Source of the DNA: a virus
Strand: one strand, 5' to 3'
Length of the DNA stretch: 35,323 bases
Virus record (IMG/VR): IMGVR_UViG_3300021961_008723
Location: 1 to 35,323 of that record
This document shows positions 10,534 to 35,323 of this stretch, in pieces. The translations under genes were made by a program, and so were the position numbers. Below the pieces are notes generated by a model. It was not told where the DNA came from. It searched no databases and saw only the letters and a program-made list of their open reading frames with translations. Position 1 is the stretch's first letter. Every line of letters starts with the position of its first letter.

Positions 10534-10565
10534 TAGGATTTCCTCCAGAATGAGATGGTTAATCC

Positions 10566-10658
10566 CGTTCCTTCGGGCGGTTTGCGTTCGCTATATGCGA
10601 ATAGCGAATGAACGATCCGTTCCGCCGTCCTACTTGCGTCGGGTTACCCCGATGAACG
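10566..10658 (-). ncRNA. Putative glutamine riboswitch (glnA / downstream-peptide type)
   Basis: Read on the minus strand. P1 pairs CGUUC (10658-10654) with GAACG (10570-10566). P2 is CGGG-GUAA-CCCG (10651-10640). The joining strand is ACGCAAGUAGG (10639-10629), close to the GGAAGUARGG core of glnA-type aptamers. P3 pairs GGCGG (10626-10622) with CCGCC (10580-10576), extended by an inner 8-bp stem UUCGCUAU/AUAGCGAA (10608-10601 with 10594-10587). CGAAG joins P3 to P1. It starts at the predicted transcription start and ends 32 bases before a very short gene, the usual context of the downstream-peptide motif. The region is much richer in GC than its surroundings. Confidence 0.72.
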
Positions 10659-10665
10659 TAAGGCC

Positions 10666-17834: not shown

Positions 17835-18272
17835 TTAGTTATTATTTCTTTTAACATATTCAATCATATTCCTAATCAAATCAACATCCTCATTTACATA
17901 TCCAATAGTTCTATTACAGACATTACAAAGTAAACCCCTCACTTCACCAGTTTTATGATTATGGTCAACAAAGAATACATCTATTGAACCACCTCTTCCA
18001 GATTTTCTACCTTTGGGATTAGTAGTTCCACAAATAGCACACTTATGTCCTTGATTTTCTAAAAGAGTATTATATTGTGTTAATCCAAAATGCTTACCAT
18101 ATCTTTGTTTGAGATTTTCATCTCTTTGTTTTAATGGGTCATAATTTTCTTGTTGCTTTTTAATATAGCATTCTTTACATTTTCCGTGATAACCATAAGG
18201 TTTTCCTTTCCTTACAGTTTGATAAAATTCAGTAAGAGGTTTTGATTGATTACAGATTTTACAAGTTCTCAT
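17835..18272 (-). CDS. HNH endonuclease (Endonuclease VII-like) next to psbA
   Basis: The 145-aa protein has an N-terminal zinc-binding pair (C4, C7, with C32 and C35 further on) and a C-terminal Endonuclease VII type core: C78-x2-C81, DHNH at 103-106 in FFVDHNHKTGEVRGLLCNVC, and C116-x2-C119. It probably acts as a free-standing homing nuclease, as reported for a nuclease linked to cyanophage psbA in S-PM2, though this is a different family. It has its own TTGACT-18-TATAAT promoter and is insulated from psbA by a terminator. Confidence 0.87.
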   Translation of the reverse strand: MRTCKICNQSKPLTEFYQTVRKGKPYGYHGKCKECYIKKQQENYDPLKQRDENLKQRYGKHFGLTQYNTLLENQGHKCAICGTTNPKGRKSGRGGSIDVFFVDHNHKTGEVRGLLCNVCNRTIGYVNEDVDLIRNMIEYVKRNNN

Positions 18273-19461: not shown

Positions 19462-19628
19462 TTTTTTAAGAGAGTTAAATAAAAGTTCGGGGGGACGAAC
19501 TGATACGATTATTCCCCACAGCACCCTCCACTGTGGGTATGAGAGACGTTTTTATACTCCCCATAGGTCTCGGTTAATGGGAGTTACAAAACATTAAGGA
19601 GTTGTTACATTCTTTAATGTTGTTGATG
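19462..19628 (-). promoter_or_regulatory. Structured psbA 5' leader
   Basis: About 167 bases without a gene between the start site and psbA. Three hairpins are visible: AACATTAA/TTAATGTT (19590-19621), CCCACAG/CTGTGGG (19515-19537) and AGTTCG/CGAACT (19484-19501). The last lies just before an AT-rich stretch leading to the ATG, which has no Shine-Dalgarno. This matches the context of the PhotoRC leader motifs described for psbA of marine cyanobacteria and cyanophages, although I cannot verify the consensus here. Confidence 0.55.
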
Positions 19629-23359: not shown

Positions 23360-23754
23360 CAGAATGCGTTTACAATAGCATTACGAACTTCAATTACAGA
23401 ATCGTAATGGTATCCAGTCACAGCAACAATTGCCTGAGTTTCACGACACCAAACAACTGCTCTCATATTAGTTCCAATAGTTCCCCAGTGAGAATTGTTT
23501 TTACTAGAAGACATTTTATTACGAGCACCTAGTTCAAAGAACTTTTTACGTGCAGAATTGCGACAAGCAATGTTATCAGCAACACCAATTGCATAAAGTA
23601 CGACAATTGGTGGTGTGTCACTTGTTCCAGTAAAATTACCAAAAGCAGCAGGAACTTCTTCAGAAGAAGTAACATTTTCTGCGAGCACAGGAGCACACAG
23701 AGAATTTACAGAAATGGATACAGCAGCAGCAAGAAGAATATTATTAATCATCAC
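23359..23754 (-). CDS. Putative exported protein with signal peptide
   Basis: The 131-aa protein starts [20 protein letters not shown] followed by APVLAENVT, a signal peptide with a likely cut after VLA. The mature part has two widely spaced cysteines (IACRNS and VVWCRETQ) that could form a disulfide, and a [16 protein letters not shown] segment. It is expected in the periplasm or thylakoid lumen. No family recognised. It overlaps petF by four bases. Confidence 0.62.
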
Positions 23755-24044
23755 AGATTTTCTTCCTGCTCAGTTAGAATAACACAGTCGCTGGTGGGAT
23801 ATGCCACACAAGTCAGCACCCAACCTTCTGCCTGCTGCTCATCATCAAGGAACGATTGCTCCTCATTATCTACGGTGCCAGAGATGAGTTTCCCTGCACA
23901 AGCTGAACAAGCTCCTGCTTTACATGACGAAGGAAGGTCAACACCTGCTTCTTCTGCTGCTTCAAGAATGTATTGGTCATCAGCACATTCGATAGTGGTT
24001 TCAGTGCCATCAGGGGATTGGAGAGTGACATTAAAAATGGTCAT
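23751..24044 (-). CDS. petF: Plant-type [2Fe-2S] ferredoxin
   Basis: The 97-aa protein has all four iron-sulfur ligands: C41, C46 and C49 in [15 protein letters not shown] and C79 in VLTCVAYP, with standard length and acidic surface. It would accept electrons from photosystem I and pass them to reductases, such as phycobilin synthesis, ribonucleotide or nitrogen enzymes. It lies between a 28-aa membrane peptide and an exported protein in one operon with two Hli genes. Confidence 0.96.
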
Positions 24045-24139: not shown

Positions 24140-24349
24140 TCAAACTACTCCAAAGAAGAGGTGCCCAGTGAGAGCATAAGAAATAGCGCCAGCAATAATG
24201 CCGACCATAGCCCAGCGTCCATTCATTTTCTCCGCTTTTTCTGCATAGGGTTCGATACCGTAACGATCAAGGTCTTCCTTGGTCATATACATCGATGGTT
24301 CTTTAGCAAACATATTCATTTGCCCGAACTCATTTTTAGTTACAGTCAT
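24140..24349 (-). CDS. hli: High-light-inducible protein (69 aa)
   Basis: The 69-aa protein has a soluble N-terminal half (KEDLDRYGIEPYAEKAEKM) and a classic Hli helix (EKMNGRWAMVGIIAGAISYA then LTGHLFFG) with the ExxNGRxAMxG pigment-binding motif. It is the first gene behind the consensus promoter at 24376-24404, so early expression is expected. Confidence 0.95.
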   Translation of the reverse strand: MTVTKNEFGQMNMFAKEPSMYMTKEDLDRYGIEPYAEKAEKMNGRWAMVGIIAGAISYALTGHLFFGVV

Positions 24350-24375: not shown

Positions 24376-24404
24376 ACTATATAGCAAAAAAGAGGGTCTG
24401 TCAA
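24376..24404 (-). promoter_or_regulatory. Consensus sigma70 promoter (TTGACA-17-TATAGT) for hli-petF operon
   Basis: TTGACA (24404-24399), 17 bases and TATAGT (24381-24376) on the minus strand. As at 10258-10286, the -35 box is in the loop of the upstream terminator. Confidence 0.75.
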
Positions 24405-24441: not shown

Positions 24442-25908
24442 TCAGAACTTGAACGTGGTCTGAATTACGCCACCCCAGTTAGAGGAGTTACCAACAAGAC
24501 GCTGGTTGTCACTGCCATAAATGATAGCAGGAGTTACACTGATGTTATCAGATACTTGATACTTGTAGAAAATTTCAAGCATCGTGGACTTGTCAAGGTT
24601 CTGACCAGTGGGTGCTTGTCCAACAGCAACACCAGCAGAGTTACCATCAACAAATACATCATCCCAAGTCAGACCAGCAAACCATGACTGACTGTTGGTA
24701 GCAGCACTAGGAGTACCACTTACAGTGTTCCAACCGTAACCTGCTGAGATAGAAGGAGCCCAACCAGATTGAGTAGGTTCCCAATATGCGTTGATAGCAT
24801 AACCATTAGAAGTTTGACCAGGAGCAAGATTGCCAGAAGCACCATTCAGACCATTGTAAGTGCGAACACGAGTGCCTTCTGTGCCATAACGATAACCGAA
24901 AGCGGCACCCCAGTTATCACCACGATAACCGATTTGTGCCAGGGTGTTGAGAGCACCAGACTCATCAAACTCACCACGAGTACTATCTTGACCTGCCTGT
25001 GCGACATAGTTCACACCAGCAATAAGACCTTTTGTACCGTACTGAGCGCCGAAACCAGCACCAACTGCCTTGTTATAGACGCCAGGAGTACCAGCAACAG
25101 AGAAGAAGTCAAGAATACCAGACTTGTATGCAGTAGGAATCCAAGCAATTTCAGTGTTACGAACCAGAGCACCTGCGGTGATGGTAGTGGTGTTATTGAA
25201 AGCAGGGAACTGATAATACAGACGGTCAATAACTACGTTGTTACCATTCTCACCAGTGGTGTTGTCTGCCTTATCAAGTTTGAAGATTGAAGAACTGGAA
25301 CCGAAAGGATCAGCACTGAAGTTGGAAGAACGCAGACGAGTACGGAGCAGATCTTGACCAGTGAACGAAGTGTCCAGGTTCAGACGCAGATCGTAGTTGA
25401 ATGCGGTACGAGTAATATCACCACCTTTGGTTTGGTAGTCATCCACACCACCAAGAACGAAAGATGCTTCACCACGCAGTTTGGTTGTGGTAGAGAACTG
25501 AGTAGCTTCAAGTTCAGCAACTTGTGCTTCCAGTTTGCCTACACGATTACGAATTACGGCAAGTTCTTGCTCAAACTCACTAGCAAGACGCTTCAGTTCA
25601 TCGGTAACTTCAGTTACACGATCCAGGCAAGCGTTAAGAAGTGCTGCTGCCTCATAACGGGTTAGAGCACGACCACCACGGAAAGTGCCGTTGGGATAAC
25701 CAGCAACGCAACCATAACGCTCTACAACGTTGCTGAGTGCTTGATATGCCCAGTCAGTAGGTTGGACATCAGAAAACTGAGTGACACTCGTAACTTGTTC
25801 GGAGGAATACTGGTTGACCCCATTCATATTAAGGTCTGCGGCCATCGCAGCAGGAGCAACCATTCCCAGAGCAACAGGTGCAAGCATCAGTTGTTGAAAG
25901 AATTTCAT
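24442..25908 (-). CDS. Cyanobacterial SomA-type outer-membrane porin (SLH + OprB barrel)
   Basis: The 488-aa protein has a signal peptide (MKFFQQLMLAPVALGMVAPA, cut after AMA), an SLH domain at about residues 44-95 (FSDVQPTDWAYQALSNVVER, then YPNGTFRGGRALTRYEAAAL), a coiled coil (ELKRLASEFEQELAVIRNRV), and an OprB-like beta barrel ending in TTFKF with the C-terminal Phe needed for barrel assembly. This is the full architecture of the host porins SomA and SomB. Its richer GC and host-like codon use suggest acquisition from the host. It could alter nutrient entry or mask a receptor. A consensus promoter precedes it. Confidence 0.92.
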   Translation of the reverse strand: MKFFQQLMLAPVALGMVAPAAMAADLNMNGVNQYSSEQVTSVTQFSDVQPTDWAYQALSNVVERYGCVAGYPNGTFRGGRALTRYEAAALLNACLDRVTEVTDELKRLASEFEQELAVIRNRVGKLEAQVAELEATQFSTTTKLRGEASFVLGGVDDYQTKGGDITRTAFNYDLRLNLDTSFTGQDLLRTRLRSSNFSADPFGSSSSIFKLDKADNTTGENGNNVVIDRLYYQFPAFNNTTTITAGALVRNTEIAWIPTAYKSGILDFFSVAGTPGVYNKAVGAGFGAQYGTKGLIAGVNYVAQAGQDSTRGEFDESGALNTLAQIGYRGDNWGAAFGYRYGTEGTRVRTYNGLNGASGNLAPGQTSNGYAINAYWEPTQSGWAPSISAGYGWNTVSGTPSAATNSQSWFAGLTWDDVFVDGNSAGVAVGQAPTGQNLDKSTMLEIFYKYQVSDNISVTPAIIYGSDNQRLVGNSSNWGGVIQTTFKF

Positions 25909-25972
25909 AGATTGTTGTTTGTACTATAGGACAAAGATTAAGAATTATAACAGAATTCTTAAGTACTTATTT

Positions 25973-26001
25973 AGTATACTAGATCGGTTTGTGCTTGTCA
26001 A
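25973..26001 (-). promoter_or_regulatory. Consensus sigma70 promoter (TTGACA-17-TATACT) for the porin
   Basis: TTGACA (26001-25996), 17 bases and TATACT (25978-25973) on the minus strand, 64 bases before the porin ATG. The -35 box overlaps the stop of the upstream glycosyltransferase gene. Further TATAAT-like boxes lie closer to the ATG but lack a -35 partner. Confidence 0.75.
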
Positions 26002-26804
26002 GCATCTTGGTTCGAAGAACTTTCGGTTACCCTTCCAAGATACGGATTAAAGTTAGTAATCTGCTCTAGTGTCAATTGAGGCCCTGCTTGCTGCCAAAAA
26101 TTAAGAATGCCATCTCTACTTTGACGATGAAAAATATCAATATGATCAGGGTGAATAGTTGAACCCAATTCAATCTTGTATAACAATAATGGAGTTGCAT
26201 AAGTAACACCAGAATTATAAATCAAATCATCAGCAACTGGTCTAGGTTTTACACCATTATCCAACTTATACTTCTCTCCTCGAACATGATATTTCAACAA
26301 TTTCTCCGCATGATGTCTTGTAATTACGTAACATGCTGTAGAAAAATCATTCACAAATCTTGAGTGAATAGGAACAACAATATCACCAGTACAAATGATT
26401 GCGAGTTGTATAACATCCCAACAGTATGGGACTCTAGAGATAAAATCTTCCCAAGTAAAATTCCAATAGTTTACAAGTTCTAGATTGCAATCATCTTCCA
26501 TGATAATTGCATAAGGACTATCAGAAGTTTCATACCAATACTTAATAGCTTTGAGGTGAGAAGTAACACAACCAATCTCTCCAGAGGTCATCATTTCTGG
26601 ATATCTACCAACTAAAATATCGCTTAGATCATCTTCTCGACCATCATAAGCAGAGATTCGAGTATAATTTTGTACATCCCAGTATTCAAACTGAGACTCC
26701 ATATACTCTTTTCTTTCTGGTTGATCATCCAAATTTAAATAATAAATTGGACCGAAATTTTTCAGTTTATAAGATGCTTTATTATTATCAAGTAGATTAG
26801 ACAT
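25998..26804 (-). CDS. GT25-like glycosyltransferase (LPS type)
   Basis: The 268-aa protein has GPIYYLNLDDQPERKEYMES (the N-terminal substrate-binding start of GT25 enzymes), SGEIGCVTSHLKAIKYWY and YAIIMEDDCNLE with the EDD metal motif. GT25 enzymes transfer galactose or related sugars onto lipooligosaccharide or collagen. It is the last gene of a long leftward glycan operon and overlaps the previous gene by eight bases. The specific sugar cannot be read from the sequence. Confidence 0.85.
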   Translation of the reverse strand: MSNLLDNNKASYKLKNFGPIYYLNLDDQPERKEYMESQFEYWDVQNYTRISAYDGREDDLSDILVGRYPEMMTSGEIGCVTSHLKAIKYWYETSDSPYAIIMEDDCNLELVNYWNFTWEDFISRVPYCWDVIQLAIICTGDIVVPIHSRFVNDFSTACYVITRHHAEKLLKYHVRGEKYKLDNGVKPRPVADDLIYNSGVTYATPLLLYKIELGSTIHPDHIDIFHRQSRDGILNFWQQAGPQLTLEQITNFNPYLGRVTESSSNQDA

Positions 26805-27516
26805 GATATTTTGAATTATTTTTTGCTAAGTGTACTATCTTTGGTTCAAAATTGCAATACTCGGAAAATACTTCTGGATATGCATACTCTGGGCTCAGAA
26901 TATTAACTCTTTCTTTTTGTTCTATAAAAAATTTGTTTAAATGACTTTCATCATGCCAAACAGCAATAACATTATCATCAAGATCCTTTTTAGTTCTATC
27001 CTCAAGTTCATCGATAAGTTCTAAAACCTGAGGCACTTTTCCGCCCCATAAACACCCTTGATAATATACGGATAAATCATCTTCTTCTACGACATGTGAT
27101 CTAGAAAGAGGATTGGTTTCAAATGCTCCTGGGAACTTATCGTGCGGTGGCATTTTAAGGTAATGACAAGGATGATGAACTCCAAAGAAATCTTTTTGTA
27201 AATCAAAGAATTCATCTTCAATTATCGTATCTACAACTAAAGCATCTGCATCAATAAAGATAAACCAATCATTTTTTTCTATTTCTTCTTTTGCTTTGTT
27301 GATGATTTCAAATCTAGTTAAAGTAATATAAGGCCACTCAAGATGTTCTTGATTGTATGTAACAATATTATCTGGCGTTTCATCCATTTCACCATCAGTA
27401 AAAACTAAAAAAGTTTTTTCCGAATTTGGGAGAAAATATTTTTCAATGTTTTCATAATAATTTGGAAGGAAATTTAAGTATTTTCCTGTTCCAATAAAAC
27501 AAATAGCAACTTTCAT
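26797..27516 (-). CDS. GT6-like glycosyltransferase (ABO/alpha-galactosyl family)
   Basis: The 239-aa protein opens with KVAICFIGTGKYLNFLPNYY then NIEKYFLPN, has WFIFIDADALVVD (DxD site), HHPCHYLKMP, YYQGCLWGG and AVWHDESHLNKFF. These are the ordered motifs of family GT6, best known from the ABO blood group transferases, which add Gal or GalNAc in alpha linkage to fucosylated galactose. The start at 27516 overlaps the fucosyltransferase stop (TGATG). The adjacent fucosyltransferase would make a suitable acceptor. Confidence 0.85.
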   Translation of the reverse strand: MKVAICFIGTGKYLNFLPNYYENIEKYFLPNSEKTFLVFTDGEMDETPDNIVTYNQEHLEWPYITLTRFEIINKAKEEIEKNDWFIFIDADALVVDTIIEDEFFDLQKDFFGVHHPCHYLKMPPHDKFPGAFETNPLSRSHVVEEDDLSVYYQGCLWGGKVPQVLELIDELEDRTKKDLDDNVIAVWHDESHLNKFFIEQKERVNILSPEYAYPEVFSEYCNFEPKIVHLAKNNSKYHV

Positions 27517-28307
27517 CAAAGTACAATCCAATTTTCAGGAATTAAATCTTTAGTATCTAGGTGCTCATTGTTAGTTCCCTTAAACCACCCAGATGGAGCA
27601 ATTACAGTTTCACTATCAGACAACCACGCTCCCCACCAAGAGAATGAAGAATTTGCAATAATATGATTAGAACACAATGTCATAAGACACAAATCAACAT
27701 AATTGGAATTTCCTTCTGCAATTAAAAATCTATCATCAGAAAAAAGTTTCTGTTGGTTACACCATTCAGGATCATCTGAAAAAACTAACACCGTAGTATC
27801 TTTATCAAAATTGCTCAAGGCATTTTCATAATACTCTAAACTAAGCGCACAGTGATTTGGATTTGTAATGTAGTCTGTTCTTCGTATATGCAATGATAAA
27901 GGTTGTTTCAGATCAGACATCATTTCCATACATGGAATCAAAATCTCATCTCTAAATTGAAAGTCCCCTTTAATTTCATCTTCAATATGTTTAAAGTATT
28001 TTTCTGATTGAAAGTATCCCTGCAAAGTAATCCAATCAGGACATTGATCAAATAGAGTTTGATCAAAAGAAAAACTGTTTTCAGAGACAGTAGGCCTATC
28101 AAAATCAATATACTGTATATTCAGTTGATTGGTATTTGAAAGTTTGAACGCATTAAAAATCTGGTGATCTTCCCATTCATTTTTATTCTTTGATGGTGGA
28201 AGACAATATTGAAATCCTCTATTTCGAGCAATTCCTTTGAGGGAAGCAAATTGAAACATTTGATTTCCCAATCTGCCCATATGTCCCAATAAATTAAAAC
28301 CTATCAT
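27516..28307 (-). CDS. GT11 alpha-1,2-fucosyltransferase
   Basis: The 263-aa protein has LLGHMGRLGNQMFQFASLKG (GT11 start), SLHIRRTDYITNPNHCALSL (the HxRRxDY GDP-fucose site), VLVFSDDPEWCN and IANSSFSWWGAWLS. It transfers fucose from GDP-fucose in alpha-1,2 linkage. The donor is supplied by GDP-mannose dehydratase and GDP-fucose synthase encoded upstream in the same cluster. It overlaps the neighbouring genes at both ends. Confidence 0.93.
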   Translation of the reverse strand: MIGFNLLGHMGRLGNQMFQFASLKGIARNRGFQYCLPPSKNKNEWEDHQIFNAFKLSNTNQLNIQYIDFDRPTVSENSFSFDQTLFDQCPDWITLQGYFQSEKYFKHIEDEIKGDFQFRDEILIPCMEMMSDLKQPLSLHIRRTDYITNPNHCALSLEYYENALSNFDKDTTVLVFSDDPEWCNQQKLFSDDRFLIAEGNSNYVDLCLMTLCSNHIIANSSFSWWGAWLSDSETVIAPSGWFKGTNNEHLDTKDLIPENWIVL

Positions 28308-29248
28308 AACTCGATAACCTTAGTAACGCTTGGAAGATAATGATTTTGGATTATATTAGTCCACTCAAATTCCTTTGAATATTCAATGATTTCTTTTCGA
28401 TGAGTAATAGAGTACTCACGATTTTCAATGATAGACTTTTCAACATAATCAAGATCATTAACTTTATTTTCAGGGACTATCGTAATAAACTTTTTAGTTT
28501 CATCGAGATTTGCTCTTCCCCATTCGGTTACAACTACACCGAGACCTGCGGCAAGAGCTTCCATACAAACAAGTGGATGCGCTTCACCATCACTCAAAAG
28601 AACAAGATTCCCATAGTGGGTCAGATTCTTGTGTAAGTTACCTTTATCCCATTCTCCAAGATAATTTTTTGTAGTATCAAATCTATTATCCGCATTATTA
28701 CCAGCGAACCAAAGACTTTCAATAGATTGAAATAAGTATTGTCGTTTTCTATAATCTATTTTGGCGAGATATATTGAACGATCGGAATGTTTGGGATTAT
28801 CAGTATATTCAAATGCATCAATATTAACCCCATTTGGAGTCACAAATAGTCTTTCTTCAGGAATGTTCATCAAAATTTTATAGACATTTTTGATTCCCTC
28901 AGATAAACAAAAAACATTTGGTTTAATCTGCGCAAATGCATTTGCAATATTTGAATAACCACCAAACATTTCAGGTCTTTCAAGATAACCAAAATGACTT
29001 GTAATGACTTTAGGATACTGTATGTAAGGATACAATCCAATAAATTCATCATAATGTATATGAACAAAATCGGGTCTGAAGGAATTAATATCCTCGATGA
29101 TTTTATTAAAATCTTTAGTATTAATAACCTGAACTGTATGACCCAGTTTTTCCAATGCGTTTTTGGTGTCCCATACTAAAATTTCTACCGCACCCCACCC
29201 TACAGGGGGAATGGGCATAATACCGGGTCCTACTAATGTTATTTTCAT
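28304..29248 (-). CDS. GT4-like glycosyltransferase
   Basis: The 314-aa protein begins ITLVGPGIMPIPPVGWGAVE, a glycine-rich start typical of GT-B enzymes, and contains EERLFVTPNGVNIDAFEY, SIYLAKIDYRKRQYL and LLSDGEAHPLVCMEALAAGL, the E-x7-E-like sugar-nucleotide site of GT4. It is slightly shorter than usual GT4 proteins. Sugar donor unknown. Confidence 0.85.
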   Translation of the reverse strand: MKITLVGPGIMPIPPVGWGAVEILVWDTKNALEKLGHTVQVINTKDFNKIIEDINSFRPDFVHIHYDEFIGLYPYIQYPKVITSHFGYLERPEMFGGYSNIANAFAQIKPNVFCLSEGIKNVYKILMNIPEERLFVTPNGVNIDAFEYTDNPKHSDRSIYLAKIDYRKRQYLFQSIESLWFAGNNADNRFDTTKNYLGEWDKGNLHKNLTHYGNLVLLSDGEAHPLVCMEALAAGLGVVVTEWGRANLDETKKFITIVPENKVNDLDYVEKSIIENREYSITHRKEIIEYSKEFEWTNIIQNHYLPSVTKVIEL

Positions 29249-30051
29249 GCCATTTCTTGAAATAAAGATAAATGTTCTTTTGGATTTTTTCTATAAAATT
29301 TAGTAAACAAATCTGGTTTACTTTTACACAGATATCCCAAAGCAATCTGTTCGTTATTAATACACTTGTTAGATATCATTTTGTCAAAAATAATATCCAT
29401 TTCTTTATCAACATTTTTAATTGCTTCAGAATTTCCACCAAACATACTTCCACAAATAAAAGATCTATTGTCATAGAAATAACTTTCTAAGAGTAGATCT
29501 GCATTTACTAAATCTGGATAGTAATCTGGATTATATTGCAATAAAAAGGTATTGTCAATTTCACCTAATTGACTTAATGCCTCAGCACTTGGATATTCAT
29601 TTTCAATGTCATCATCAGATAAAAATCTACTGGCTCCAGCATCTAACCAAAAGAAATACTTTGATTCAAATGGATTAATTTTACATGATTCAACAATCCA
29701 CTTAAATTTAGAATACTGTATGACTGAATATATCGATTCTTGACATTCTACTCTACTGCAGTCAGTCATTTGAGATTTATATTCTTCAGAATCTAAAATG
29801 TTCTGAATCTTATCCTTTAAGGAATACAAAGGAACATCTTCCAGTTTAGTTGTAATAATATGCGTAGGAAGATTCTTTCTTTTATCTTTGATGAAATCTA
29901 CTGTCTCTTCTTCGGTAAAAATAATAAAAGGACATTTTACTTGTAAGGTTTTTGCAAACCAATTCAAATAATCTTCCCAATCTCTATTATCATTACGTTT
30001 TACTTTTTTTAGATTATACAGTGATGTGACAATTACAAAATCATTATTCAT
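29245..30051 (-). CDS. HtrL/YibB-like putative glycosyltransferase
   Basis: The 268-aa protein reads FVIVTSLYNLKKV, DWEDYLNWFAKTLQVKCPFI, YFFWLDAGASRF and DNRSFICGSMFGGNSEAIKN. These blocks match the HtrL_YibB family, found in LPS and capsule clusters and thought to be a GT-A glycosyltransferase. It overlaps its neighbours by four and one bases. Donor and acceptor are unknown. Confidence 0.75.
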   Translation of the reverse strand: MNNDFVIVTSLYNLKKVKRNDNRDWEDYLNWFAKTLQVKCPFIIFTEEETVDFIKDKRKNLPTHIITTKLEDVPLYSLKDKIQNILDSEEYKSQMTDCSRVECQESIYSVIQYSKFKWIVESCKINPFESKYFFWLDAGASRFLSDDDIENEYPSAEALSQLGEIDNTFLLQYNPDYYPDLVNADLLLESYFYDNRSFICGSMFGGNSEAIKNVDKEMDIIFDKMISNKCINNEQIALGYLCKSKPDLFTKFYRKNPKEHLSLFQEMA

Positions 30052-30767
30052 TAATAAAACTCCTTGAATTGGTGAACCAAAGGATTACTTTTCATCTTCC
30101 AATATGGATCTCTAGAACATTCAATAATATCTGGATTAAATGTTTCTTCCTCTCCAACAATTGCAAAAACTAATGGGAGAAGAACATCATGAGCATAGAT
30201 TGCATAAAACTCATCGATAAAAGAATCAATTATGCTTGGATTCTTTCTAAGGATATTCAATGATTTCATAAACGTTTTTGTTTCAAAGATTGCAGGGGTT
30301 GCCCCCCAACAATCTATCACTTTAGCACCTTTAATATTAGCGAGAACATTTTTAAGTCCTTGCGGTAATCCACGATTTATTCTAGATCCCAACAACTTTG
30401 CATTAAAAGGGATGGATAATTTTCCTCTCACAAGAGCGTCAGGATCCATCATGAGAATATAATCAGTGTTACAATATTGTATACACCTTTCTAATCTATC
30501 TAAAATAGCATATGTTGCTTTTCGTATAGTATTCTGATGAACAGATTCTCTCCAATTTTGATCTGTGACTTTAAATGTATCACTCATAGTATCTTCTTCT
30601 AAAGATACTTCTAGATTTTCATATTGTTCTTTCAAATATGTAAAATCACATCCACCATCAGAAACCAAATAGATTGGATTCTCTGGATAATATTTCCTCA
30701 ACTGTGACAGAGAATATTCTACTGCACGCTTTTCAGTGTAGCAACTATAAAAGAATCCAAGACTCAT
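30051..30767 (-). CDS. Putative GT-A glycosyltransferase
   Basis: The 238-aa protein starts LGFFYSCYTEKRAVEYSLSQ and has PIYLVSDGGCDFTYL and DYILMMDPDALVRG, a DxD-type metal site in a GT-A arrangement. GSRINRGLPQGLKNV and VIDCWGATPAIFETKTFMKS follow. I cannot name a CAZy family with confidence. It begins where the methyltransferase ends. Confidence 0.65.
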   Translation of the reverse strand: MSLGFFYSCYTEKRAVEYSLSQLRKYYPENPIYLVSDGGCDFTYLKEQYENLEVSLEEDTMSDTFKVTDQNWRESVHQNTIRKATYAILDRLERCIQYCNTDYILMMDPDALVRGKLSIPFNAKLLGSRINRGLPQGLKNVLANIKGAKVIDCWGATPAIFETKTFMKSLNILRKNPSIIDSFIDEFYAIYAHDVLLPLVFAIVGEEETFNPDIIECSRDPYWKMKSNPLVHQFKEFY

Positions 30768-31378
30768 CAGAACTTAGCAATAATGTCATAAGGTTGTGTC
30801 ATATCACACTTTAATTTAGAAATCAATTCAGAATCAAATTCTTCGGGATGAATCCACCAATCTTCAAAAGGACAAGGCTCTCCAGTATAACCAGCATGTC
30901 CAGGATTAGGAACTAAAACATTTGAACATACCATTTCATATCCCAAAGATTTCAAAACTTTTCTTTGTTCTTTACGGTATTTGTCACCATAGAGATAAGC
31001 ATCATGTTCAATGGTAATAGTTTTAAATCGATAATCAGAGAACGGAAGAATATTAAGAACACTCAAAGAAAGAGTATCAACATCAAGAGAAAGATAGTCA
31101 ATAGTCTGCGGAAATTCATTTTCTTCAAAGATTTCTTTATAATTAATTTTTAGAGCATCTTCATTATAATGAGTTCCCTTTTGTCTTGTGTGATAACTAT
31201 CATTATATTGACTATTGATTTCAACACTTATAGATGTCCAACCAAGTTCCTGAAAAGTAAATGTATTATTGGAAATGATGGAATGGCAACTGCCAATATC
31301 AACACAATAACCGTCTGTTTTAAAATTTAAAATATTTGCAACGAATTGATCTTGTCTAGCATCAGAATAAAAATTCAT
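30767..31378 (-). CDS. FkbM-like methyltransferase
   Basis: The 203-aa protein begins NFYSDARQDQFVANILNFKT and has GYCVDIGSCHSIISNNTFTF (SAM-binding motif I), SISVEINSQYND and TIDYLSLDVDTLSLSVLNIL, as in FkbM-type enzymes that O-methylate sugars. The ATG at 31378 has GGAG before it and follows the upstream stop by two bases. It probably caps or decorates the glycan. Confidence 0.8.
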   Translation of the reverse strand: MNFYSDARQDQFVANILNFKTDGYCVDIGSCHSIISNNTFTFQELGWTSISVEINSQYNDSYHTRQKGTHYNEDALKINYKEIFEENEFPQTIDYLSLDVDTLSLSVLNILPFSDYRFKTITIEHDAYLYGDKYRKEQRKVLKSLGYEMVCSNVLVPNPGHAGYTGEPCPFEDWWIHPEEFDSELISKLKCDMTQPYDIIAKF

Positions 31379-31380
31379 TT

Positions 31381-32352
31381 TCAATCTCCAAAAATACTCA
31401 ATATACTGTTAATTCTGTTTATATAGGTATGATTTTCTTTTACATATTGCATACCATTTTTAATTAAATTGTAATTGCCTCTGTTCTTCATACCATCATA
31501 GAACAATCTTTCGGTGTCCTCATCAAAGATACAATTTCCATCCATCTCCTCATAAATCACCGATGAGTTAGTTAAACCCAAATGTCCATAACTTATGTTT
31601 TTAAATACTCTACATGTCAATAGTCCTTGCTTCAAATGTTGTGGGCCACGTATATCAATACCAAGTAATGATTTTTGTGTTCTGACTATAACTTCACCCA
31701 TAGATAAAGGATTTGCCCAAGGATCATTATGAATAAATTTAACTCGATTTTCTTGACACGCTTTCAGAAAAGGAATCCAATTTGAATAATTTTCACAGAT
31801 TCCCTGAGATGATATTGTTCCAGAATAGTATATTACATTTTCTCGTTCTAAGTAAATATCCTCTTCTTCAAATTCTTCTGGTAGAAGATTTGTTGCCCAA
31901 CTAATATAAACTTTATCATAATCATCAATTTCATAATCCACGTAGTCATTTTTTACTCTGACTTTATTGGATGTTTTGGGTTCGTAATAACAAGCAGGTC
32001 CCAATTTTATAGTTTTGGATTTATCTAGAGAGTAATCGTGAATGTGGTCTTTAAAATCAATAGCCGCCATTCTCACGTCAATGTATCTCCCAGCATCTTT
32101 ATATTTGATTGGAGATGGGCAATACATGATGAAGTAACAACTACTATCATTAATTGGAATCTTTTTATCAGCAAATCCTTCGCCTATAAAAAAGCAATTG
32201 GTATAATCAAAATCTTCAGGGTAATCATCATCATGAAACCAATAGACATCATACCCTAAATGTTTAAAAGCACGATAATAAGCATCATGTACATATGAAT
32301 GTGTATGTGAATATAGAGGGTGTCCCCATATTACTACCTTAGAATATTTCAT
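31381..32352 (-). CDS. Unassigned glycan-cluster protein, GT-B-like
   Basis: The 323-aa protein begins VVIWGHPLYSHTHSYVHDAY and contains NVIYYSGTISSQGICENYSN, SLLGIDIRGPQHLKQGLLTC and GHLGLTNSSVIYEEMDGNCI. The placement of a sugar-nucleotide-like C-terminal half after an N-terminal Rossmann-like start suggests a GT-B transferase, but no family is recognised. It overlaps the GDP-fucose synthase and methyltransferase genes. Confidence 0.55.
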   Translation of the reverse strand: MKYSKVVIWGHPLYSHTHSYVHDAYYRAFKHLGYDVYWFHDDDYPEDFDYTNCFFIGEGFADKKIPINDSSCYFIMYCPSPIKYKDAGRYIDVRMAAIDFKDHIHDYSLDKSKTIKLGPACYYEPKTSNKVRVKNDYVDYEIDDYDKVYISWATNLLPEEFEEEDIYLERENVIYYSGTISSQGICENYSNWIPFLKACQENRVKFIHNDPWANPLSMGEVIVRTQKSLLGIDIRGPQHLKQGLLTCRVFKNISYGHLGLTNSSVIYEEMDGNCIFDEDTERLFYDGMKNRGNYNLIKNGMQYVKENHTYINRINSILSIFGD

Positions 32353-33284
32353 TTGGATGAATCATAATAAGTATTTTCAACAAACCACTGATAGGTTTTT
32401 ACAAGTCCTTGATGAAGATTATGCTTTGCAGACCAACCCATATTATTCATTTTGGAACAATCCAATGGTCTATTTGGTGTTCCATTTGGTCTAGACGTAT
32501 CCCATTCAATATTACCAGTATAACCTACTACAGAAGCAACTGTTTCTGCAAGTTCTTTTATTGTAACATTATTTCCAGATCCTACATTGATCAATTCAGC
32601 ATTTTCAAACTTATCCATGGCAAACAAGCAAGCATCTGCAAGATCATCAGAATATAAAAATTCACGTTTAGGAGTTCCATCTCCCCAGAAAGTTACAGTC
32701 TTTCCATTTGAATTATTAAACTTGGTCATCATTGCAGGTATGACATGACCGTTTTGAGGATGAAAATTATCTCCAGGGCCATACAAGTTTGATGGCATCA
32801 ATGAAACACCTTTGAAACCATATTGCTTATGGTATGCCTGAAGCATTTTAATTCCAGCAATTTTTGCAACGGCGTATGCATCATTTGTTGGTTCAAGATA
32901 ACCAGTCAATAATGAGTCTTCTCTTACAGGAACATCAGCATACTTAGGATAAATGCAAACTGATCCCAAAAAGAGAAACTTATCTACATCATGTTTCCAT
33001 GAATTGTGAATCAAATTAGTTTGAATTTGAATATTTTCATAGATAAAATCTGCAGAATAAGTATCGTTTGCATAAATCCCACCAACTCTCGCTGCAGCAT
33101 CAAAAACATAATTTACTTTTTCTACTTCAAAAAAGTCAGAAACTTGCTGCTGATTTAACAAGTCTAGTTCTTGACGTGTTTTAGTTACAATATTTGTATA
33201 TCCATTCTCACGAAGAGTCCTAACTATTGCAGATCCAACTAGTCCCCTATGACCAGCAACGAATATTTTAGAATCTTTTTTCAT
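32349..33284 (-). CDS. wcaG: GDP-L-fucose synthase
   Basis: The 311-aa protein is a short-chain dehydrogenase: KIFVAGHRGLVGSAIVRTL with the NADP-binding GxxGxxG (residues 11-17), GSVCIYP with S108, and DAYAVAKIAG with the Y137-x3-K141 pair. NLYGPGDNFHPQNGHVIPAM is typical of GDP-fucose synthases. It epimerises and reduces GDP-4-keto-6-deoxymannose to GDP-fucose, using the product of the dehydratase encoded at 34529. Confidence 0.94.
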   Translation of the reverse strand: MKKDSKIFVAGHRGLVGSAIVRTLRENGYTNIVTKTRQELDLLNQQQVSDFFEVEKVNYVFDAAARVGGIYANDTYSADFIYENIQIQTNLIHNSWKHDVDKFLFLGSVCIYPKYADVPVREDSLLTGYLEPTNDAYAVAKIAGIKMLQAYHKQYGFKGVSLMPSNLYGPGDNFHPQNGHVIPAMMTKFNNSNGKTVTFWGDGTPKREFLYSDDLADACLFAMDKFENAELINVGSGNNVTIKELAETVASVVGYTGNIEWDTSRPNGTPNRPLDCSKMNNMGWSAKHNLHQGLVKTYQWFVENTYYDSSK

Positions 33285-33288
33285 GTTA

Positions 33289-34539
33289 TCAAGGAATTAC
33301 AATTTCAGGATGAGGCAGTGGAAATACTAATTTCTTGCCTTTGAACTTAGGACTGTTGACAAAGAAGTTTTTAAAGTGCCATGGAAGTATAACAAATACA
33401 TCGTACTCTTCGATTACAGAATCTTCAACTTGAATAGGAATCCATGTTCCTGGAGTAAAGGACCCATCTTTGTCTGGATTAACTTCACCAACAACTTCAA
33501 TATCACTGTTAGTTATTTCCCAAGTTTGGAGAGTAACGTTTCCTTTTGTACTAGCACCAAGAGCTGCAATTTTTAATCCTTGAGATTTGAATTCATTTAA
33601 AAGTTTCCAAAACTCAAGTTTGCATTGATTAATCCTAAACGAAAAATCATTCCAGGGTTCAGTTGTGTTCAGTTTAAGATCCAATTCTTGTTGGATTAAT
33701 GCAGATACCTTTTCAGTTGCTTCCTCATATTGACTATTCTTATTTGCAACTACCAGAGAAATACTTCCTCCATTTACATCATTAAATTCAAAATCAATAA
33801 TTTTGAATCCCGATTGATCCATGATGTATTTTAATTGTCTCATTCCATAATAAGACAAATGCTCATGACACACAGTATCAAAAGAATTTACTCTGAGCAT
33901 TTCTGGCATATAACTTTGTTCCAATACCCAAATTCCATTATCTGGATCGAGAACAGAATTCACTTCTCTTGCAAATTGGCAAGGATCTTCAAGATCATAA
34001 AACATCGAAAAAGAAGTAATTAGTTTTGCTTTTTCGGTTTTAAAATATTTTCTAAACAAACTTTCACTAAAGAAGTCTGCAATAAAATCTACATGATCTT
34101 TAAAATATTTTGAAAACTTTTTAGATGTTGGATCAATACTAACCAACTTCAATTCAGGAGAAAAGAATCCAAGGAAAGTTCCATCATTTCCTGCAATATC
34201 AATTACAAGATCTCTTTTTTCCAACTTGATAAAGTTAACGATTTTATCATGTTTGGATTGAAGATGTTTTACCATACTGTTGTTCAAACCAGAACGGTAT
34301 CCATATTCTTCTCCATACATTGTGGGAAGATCAAACGTATGTTCCAATTGAACATGTCCACAACCACCGGTTTCTTCGTCACATTTAACTAAAACCAGAG
34401 GTCCTCGGTACATATCAGTATCAACAGATTTTGGAAAAATTCCAGACAGATACTGATTACCCAGATCTAAAACTGTGGCGAAGTGCTTATTACCACACAC
34501 TCTACATTTTTCGATTTTATAAAACATGTCAAACGTCAT
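33289..34539 (-). CDS. Sugar C-methyltransferase (SAM-dependent)
   Basis: About 416 residues. The N-terminus has a zinc-site pattern ([10 protein letters not shown] then [14 protein letters not shown]), the middle a SAM fold ([16 protein letters not shown]), then [20 protein letters not shown] with the YYG motif, and a C-terminal Rossmann-like domain ([20 protein letters not shown]). This three-part layout is that of TylCIII/NovU-type C-methyltransferases, which methylate keto-deoxysugars. Start choice is uncertain: ATG 34539 has GAGG upstream, ATG 34527 follows the dehydratase stop by one base. Confidence 0.85.
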
Positions 34540-35323
34540 TGATACACATATCCTCAACTAATTGTTTAAATGAAGTTCTAGGGTTCCATCCTAGTTTTTC
34601 TTTTGCCTTAGAGGCATCACCTAATAAGGTCTCTACTTCAGCAGGTCTAAAATATTTAGGATTGACTCTAACAATAGTTTTTCCACTAAGTTTATCAATA
34701 CCAATTTCATTCAGTCCAGATCCTTCCCAAATAATATTCATTCCAAAATATGGAGCAGCTTCCTCGATGAATTCACGAACAGAATATTGTTCTCCAGTTG
34801 CAATTACATAATCATCTGGTTCATCTTGTTGAAGCATCAACCACATTGCCTCAACAAAATCCTTAGCATGTCCCCAATCTCGTTTTGCATTTAAGTTACC
34901 AAGTTCTAAAACATCTTGTTTTCCTTTGATGATCTGAGAAAGACCACGAACAATTTTTTTGGTAACAAATGTCTCACCTCGACGAGGAGATTCATGATTA
35001 AAAAGAATCCCCGTGCAAGCATACATTCCATATGCTTCACGATAGTTTTTAGTAATCCAATAACCATAAATCTTCGCTACCCCATAAGGAGAGCGGGGAT
35101 AAAAAGGAGTAGTTTCACTTTGAGGAGTTTCTTGAACAAGACCATAAAGTTCGCTTGTAGATGCTTGATAAATCCGTACACGATCTTCCATGCCCAGGAG
35201 ACGCACAGCCTCAAGAACACGAAGAGTTCCCATAGCATCGACATCAGCAGTGTATTCAGGCATTTCAAAGGATACTTTGACATGACTTTGAGCACCAAGA
35301 TTATAAATTTCATCGGGTTGTAC
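34529..35323 (-). CDS. gmd: GDP-mannose 4,6-dehydratase (partial, 5' end outside window)
   Basis: The frame is open to the window edge and enters with [20 protein letters not shown], followed by the conserved [40 protein letters not shown] (Tyr-x3-Lys site) and [20 protein letters not shown] of GMD. About 264 C-terminal residues are present. It removes water from GDP-mannose to give the 4-keto-6-deoxy intermediate for GDP-fucose. It is the first step of the donor pathway for the GT11 enzyme at 27516. Confidence 0.96.

Follow-up and report, generated by a model that had tools for sequence, protein, structure and literature searches.

Cyanophages related to the virus studied here carry a porin gene that in many of them lies directly upstream of pstS, and this porin–pstS adjacency in phages is the main new result of the analysis. 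The gene was followed from a 35-kb IMG/VR fragment from a virus of freshwater cyanobacteria (‘the window’, meaning the whole 35 323-nucleotide stretch analysed). We think it rather probable that the porin provides the outer-membrane component of a phage module for acquiring phosphate.

The porin gene and its surroundings in the window

The earlier note had described a 488-aa reading frame at 24442–25908. The interval is exact but the gene is read on the minus strand (25908..24442), where the frame is intact, and the plus-strand frame is interrupted by stops. The gene and its immediate neighbours comprise the following features.

24442..25908, minus strand: SLH-OprB porin coding sequence, 488 aa, ATG at 25908, C-terminus ...TTFKF followed by the stop codon
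25837..25908, minus strand: putative signal peptide, aa 1–24 (cleavage between MKFFQQLMLAPVALGMVAPAAMA and AD), read by eye without a predictor
25645..25776, minus strand: SLH domain, aa 45–88 (Pfam PF00395, 9.6e-9)
25501..25659, minus strand: predicted alpha-helical coiled-coil stalk, aa 84–136 (AlphaFold2 model)
24448..25488, minus strand: predicted 16-strand beta-barrel, aa 141–487 (AlphaFold2 model)
25973..26001, minus strand: sigma70-type promoter TTGACA-17-TATACT, 11/12, overlapping the last codons of the GT25 gene
25938..25962, minus strand: leader inverted repeat TTAAGAATT-CTGTTAT-AATTCTTAA, an operator or an RNA hairpin
25921..25933, minus strand: conserved leader segment TGTCCTATAGTAC preceding the start codon
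24389..24414, minus strand: strong intrinsic terminator, 11-bp stem AAGGAGGGTCTTGACAGACCCTCTTT, then a T run
24376..24404, minus strand: hli promoter TTGACA-17-TATAGT, with its −35 inside the porin terminator hairpin
24140..24349, minus strand: high-light-inducible protein (hli), the next gene (PHROG 178)
23751..24044, minus strand: ferredoxin petF (Fer2, 1.4e-23)
25998..26804, minus strand: GT25 family glycosyltransferase, upstream of the porin and a conserved neighbour of it

Pfam returned OprB (PF04966, 2.5e-12, aa 104–465) and SLH as the sole domains of the protein, both above their gathering scores and with no match to PF24653; PHROG gave no match to the porin. The NCBIfam model NF033921 (por_somb, ‘iron uptake porin’) matched aa 39–488 over profile positions 1–485 of 485, with 288.9 bits against a cut-off of 100. 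The full-length profile match, the N-terminal SLH domain with an OprB barrel, and the C-terminal aromatic residue (TTFKF, direct from the sequence) support assignment of the predicted product to the SomA/SomB-type porins with SLH, the type proposed in the earlier note. The signal peptide typical of the family, which that note had also listed, was likewise recognized by eye. Cyanobacterial SomA/SomB porins (among them Synechocystis Slr1841 and Slr1908) have the same domain order and full-length NF033921 profile match, whereas the phage porins form a clade of their own whose nearest host relatives are 62–64% identical.

The AlphaFold2 model, for which a 61-sequence alignment was supplied, bears out the coiled coil and the OprB-like barrel ending in Phe that had been read from the sequence. 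Its pLDDT is mostly >80 in the barrel, while the SLH part is modelled at low confidence. Long loops follow the odd strands and mostly short turns the even ones, as in a porin with periplasmic ends, and the best Foldseek matches were OprB, OmpF/OmpC and the Veillonella SLH porin OmpM1. OmpM1 of Veillonella parvula (8bym) has the same order of SLH domain, coiled coil and porin barrel and matches in N-terminal sequence and barrel fold, but it is a bacterial protein and its barrel sequence is distant from that of the window porin. The full 16-strand barrel is maintained under purifying selection (dN/dS about 0.15 against the window orthologues, with dS biased low because the loci had been selected by porin identity). 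Nonsynonymous changes per codon per pair were 0.23 in the predicted surface loops, 0.11 in the strands and 0.41 in the coil, the fastest part; hypervariable surface loops, the signature of an arms race, were rejected on these values. The corresponding dN/dS values for prx, computed in a wrong frame, and for psbD, computed on matches to its paralogue psbA, were discarded.

The porin promoter noted earlier is of good quality. Sites as good as this number 12 in the window against 2.0 in dinucleotide shuffles, and in most phage relatives the porin promoter scores 10–12/12, where shuffled sequence mostly gives 8–9. An own sigma70 promoter of this kind would be compatible with early expression. Because a strong intrinsic terminator lies 3′ of the porin, the gene looks monocistronic. 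Composites of a terminator and a −35 element with other stem sequences are present at eight other loci (L014, L028, L036, L002, L244, L247, L255 and L270).

Of 127 distinct phage porin leaders, 23 share the inverted repeat of the window leader, and near variants were found in others. This repeat stands in place of a different element, a hairpin with an 11-nt loop (C-N-CAA-Y-UA-Y-U-Y) that by pattern occurs in about a quarter of these leaders (30/127; examples are L002:14936–14966, L037, L061, L244, L274 and L287). The stem of this hairpin covaries: nine of its ten pairs change on both sides, and 83.5% of cells are paired against 68.6% when shuffled and at most about 40% when slid. Across the collected loci its covariance model matched only before the porin, bar one 15-bit match. 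No whole phage record had more than one strong match (at least 34 bits), and these matches lay immediately upstream of the porin, which speaks against this class-2 leader hairpin being a general phage element. Rfam gave no match to either leader type, hairpin or window-type repeat.

The earlier note had remarked on the richer GC of the gene. The figure holds (0.47 against 0.359) but is not special to the porin, petF (0.466), psbA (0.469) and psbD (0.449) being similarly high. Besides these genes and hli the window contains a peroxiredoxin gene and a sugar/glycosyltransferase cluster; the latter, with sugar-nucleotide genes and GT25, GT6, GT11 and other glycosyltransferases, adjoins the porin (25998–35263, minus strand). 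Phage S-SRM01 has a comparable glycosyltransferase/sugar cluster close to its porin. Elsewhere in the window are a glutamine riboswitch (RF01739, 38.5 bits; 10562–10660, minus strand), a small HNH-like ORF between psbA and psbD (17835–18272, minus strand) with related ORFs near these genes in some related contigs, and a PhotoRC-II RNA (RF01717, 80.5 bits; 19501–19596, minus strand). The last of these overlaps the GTG codon at which the listed psbA ORF begins, so that psbA probably starts further downstream in reality.

Spread and origin of the phage porin

Phages of Synechococcus and Prochlorococcus have relatives of the window photosystem genes, in about 400 records. IMG/VR scans gave 179 close porin relatives and, when seeded with the S-SRM01 porin, at least 505; a third scan gave at least 589 SLH relatives of either the full porin or a short SLH type. 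Among the best 80 contigs porin identity is 84–92% and the order GT25–porin–hli–petF–phrog_475–peroxiredoxin–gp21681–lysozyme–psbA–psbD recurs, with exceptions. The porin, described earlier as an unusual cargo, is thus common, with hundreds of phage relatives in IMG/VR, but among sequenced isolates the full-length protein is found only in S-SRM01; S-CREM1 and S-PM2 share the SLH domain and coil only. Exact porin peptides had no match in the genome contigs, from which relatives were recovered by a profile search with an SLH motif. One phage contig (the record of L279, G151) has two full-length porin genes 13 kb apart, at 62675–64165 and 77478–78953.

S-SRM01 is a freshwater T4-like cyanophage from a Singapore reservoir, and its full-length SLH-OprB porin (QPX48248.1) is 66.7% identical to that of the window over the whole length. 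It differs in having the hairpin type of leader, and like the window it is without pstS. The paper on this phage does not mention the porin (PMC8557907), and no description of a cyanophage porin was found in the full-text literature searched, which mostly excludes subscription journals.

In the phylogeny against host porins suggested in the earlier note, all 19 phage porins formed a single clade (100/100) beside porins of freshwater Cyanobium/Synechococcus. This clade includes L086, whose label as a ‘Microbacteriaceae’ contig (a 64% match) was rejected because it carries phage genes and is therefore a phage contig. The phage clade, the synteny and the isolate S-SRM01 together describe a host-derived gene stably kept in phage genomes, that is, an auxiliary metabolic gene. 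Contamination with host DNA, or misassembly, could be suspected because the gene is host-like and its GC exceeds the mean of the contig, but the same phage context recurs in dozens of contigs and in S-SRM01 and the porin clade is phage-only, so this explanation has a negligible probability.

The host porins near the phage clade adjoin either phosphate genes (pstS, sphX, CHAD, Na/Pi cotransporter) or iron genes (futA, futB). What the tree did not separate was which of these is the sister lineage: the pstS-linked placement has support of 61/16 and the futA-linked one was not rejected (AU p = 0.30), so that the attempt to read the substrate from the porin tree by itself failed. Context also tracks phylogeny imperfectly, a futA-linked porin (L458) falling within the pstS clade. 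The closest host porins (62–64% identity) are in G081, G101 and G058. In G101 and G058 the host order is Na/Pi cotransporter-like gene–CHAD–porin–pstS; in G081 the cotransporter, on which Pfam Na_Pi_cotrans was matched, precedes two porins, and a simple seed search recognized no pstS there. Host loci of the wider porin clade have the same porin-then-pstS order as the phages. Phage porins are 487–508 aa long and many host porins 520–560 aa.

The spread of the gene also bears on the earlier suggestion that the porin replaces a receptor to block superinfection. There is a precedent in lambdoid phage PA-2, which encodes the Lc porin, by which its own receptor OmpC is displaced, and the cyanophage porin adjoins a surface-glycan gene cluster (26–35 kb). 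The predicted loops are not diversified relative to the rest of the protein, however, the porin is well conserved among the best 80 contigs, and superinfection exclusion leaves the linkage to pstS described below unexplained. The suggestion found no support here and we judge it very improbable.

Linkage to pstS and the substrate of the porin

The gene that immediately follows the porin on the same strand is pstS in 48 of 124 porin-centred phage loci, where the gap is mostly 86–160 bp; the other 76 loci have no pstS. By type, pstS was found in 21 of 65 loci of group A (that of the window), 27 of 59 of group B and one of 62 of the short SLH type, always downstream and on the same strand. Of the 45 long phage records, 14 encode PstS (PF12849). 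In each of these, pstS is the same-strand gene that immediately follows either the porin (13 records) or the short SLH protein (one), about 0.2–1.5 kb from it, and no PstS gene was found elsewhere in these records. In the PstS tree the PstS proteins of phages with this cassette fall among host PstS proteins that adjoin a porin and are separate from SphX and from the second PstS of the hosts; a marine sequence, from S-SM1, lies on a long branch among the porin-neighbour PstS proteins and was given no weight.

The sequence CTTAA[CT][CT]N4CTTA[AG] is similar to the consensus of cyanobacterial Pho boxes, with an 11-nt period. Within 2.3 Mb it was found at 56 distinct sites, of which 28 are before pstS, 18 are no more than 200 bp before a porin and most of the remaining 10 are also at a porin start; this enrichment is descriptive only because the pattern was chosen after such leaders had been seen. 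With the published Pho-box consensus at 14/16 or better, matches were found before 39–45% of group B porins against 7–8% when shuffled, and there was no enrichment before group A porins. Pho-box-like repeats are a feature of many relatives, mainly before pstS and group B porins. A Pho box in the window was rejected, the best score of 12/16 being that of the shuffle background. Predicted Pho boxes in cyanophages have been described as unreliable (PMC10976474).

Nutrient uptake, with phosphate as an example, had been offered earlier as a possible function, and for the family this now has the pstS linkage and the Pho-box-like repeats in its favour. The slot between porin and hli, which pstS occupies in other phages, is empty in the window. 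Because the window has neither pstS nor a Pho box, its own phosphate role rests on orthology, and the window copy may act as its relatives do.

The NF033921 family is best known for iron, through Slr1908 of Synechocystis, disruption of which lowers cell iron (PMC8707739). The phage protein could accordingly be a porin for iron, or for inorganic cations generally, supplying phage-boosted photosynthetic electron transport (petF, psbA). The NCBIfam label, the futA/futB-linked candidate among the host sisters and the nearby ferredoxin gene, joined in S-SRM01 by Dps, all point this way. Yet the binding protein linked to the porin in the phages is PstS, in 48 of 48 cases downstream of it, and Dps of the S-SRM01 type is also found in contigs with the short SLH protein. 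We regard an iron porin as unlikely. The Dps-like gene of S-SRM01 lies shortly downstream of its porin (L002:16977–17411) and has relatives at 13 loci of group A, 25 of group B and 20 of the short SLH type.

The gene, its family, its wide occurrence in a phage clade with conserved synteny, its position before pstS and the repeat motif are direct results of the analysis. For the phosphate module that we favour, the steps that we infer are expression, insertion into the outer membrane, phosphate as substrate and benefit to the phage. Freshwater/estuarine T4-like cyanophages would have taken up a SomA/SomB-type porin a single time, from a nutrient-uptake porin of Cyanobium/Synechococcus. After transcription from its own sigma70 promoter and export by its signal peptide, it would form a 16-strand barrel, presumably as a trimer, in the outer membrane of the host, and its SLH domain, carried on the coiled-coil stalk, would grip the peptidoglycan layer. 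During infection it would serve as an additional channel for inorganic ions, and in many relatives it would pass phosphate across the outer membrane to be captured in the periplasm by phage PstS for the host Pst transporter, the captured phosphate feeding phage DNA synthesis.

Other phage barrels and a possible outer-membrane phosphate step

Eight of nine marine cyanophages examined have a gene directly before pstS for PF24653 (‘cyanophage outer membrane protein like beta barrel’, PhCOG173/DUF680), confirmed by Pfam in the eight records (L473, L474, L475 and L477–L481); in P-SSM4 the copy lies elsewhere. PhCOG173 (Phage_OMP) is thus likewise a phage outer-membrane-like barrel upstream of pstS, but at about 122 aa, without SLH and with no Pfam match in common it differs from the porin, and none of 16 porin- or short-SLH-bearing records tested contained PF24653. 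It has been linked to phosphate limitation (PMC6224464, PMC9146016). That two barrels with no detected relationship both precede pstS strengthens the phosphate reading.

A third kind of protein, the short SLH type of S-CREM1 (‘iron uptake porin’) and S-PM2 (p168, ‘putative S-layer protein’), is widespread in cyanophages, with 150 relatives of about 290 aa (280–292; for example L003:5935–6813, L004:5932–6771 and L314–L393) annotated as ‘iron uptake porin’ or ‘S-layer protein’. It has SLH and coil in common with the porin but differs in its predicted barrel of eight strands, modelled with moderate confidence (pLDDT 67) and matching Ail, OmpW and OmpA; at this length and with such a barrel, the label ‘iron uptake porin’ is doubtful for it. 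The 45 long phage records contained the porin (25) or the short SLH protein (20) and never both. Mutual exclusivity of the two is suggestive, since the records were picked via either query and some are partial.

Alternatively, the SLH-stalk-barrel could be chiefly a tether of outer membrane to peptidoglycan that holds the envelope during infection, the pore being secondary. SLH/OprB proteins have been associated with outer-membrane stability (PMC8707739), OmpM1, its analogue in structure, is a porin for outer-membrane attachment, and other cyanophages have an SLH-coil protein with a smaller predicted barrel, the two kinds never together. A tether would leave the pstS linkage and the Pho-like repeats unexplained, and the 16-strand barrel has been retained in full under purifying selection; we think it improbable as the main function.

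More tentatively, and with rather less confidence than for the module itself, cyanophages in general may place an outer-membrane phosphate step before PstS, using alternative, mutually exclusive barrels (PF24653 in marine phages, the SLH porin or, less clearly, the short SLH protein in freshwater/estuarine ones). Such a module would be Pho-controlled, would in some phages include an RNA hairpin in the leader of the porin gene, and would be a distinct and overlooked part of host takeover. A viral porin beside a nutrient transporter gene is known from OmpL next to glnK-amtB, which differs in being attributed to viruses of Bacteroidetes, in concerning ammonium and in belonging to another porin family (PMC8115048).

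The pstS gene of cyanophages is a textbook auxiliary gene, and phosphate must first cross the outer membrane. If the phosphate reading is true, a common, pstS-coupled phage porin would mean that viruses control nutrient uptake at the outer membrane as well, and the small barrel protein ahead of pstS in marine phages would have a rationale; the question is testable with cultured phage S-SRM01. The position of the porin directly before pstS in many related viruses suggests that these viruses may widen the outer door for phosphate besides supplying the catcher behind it.
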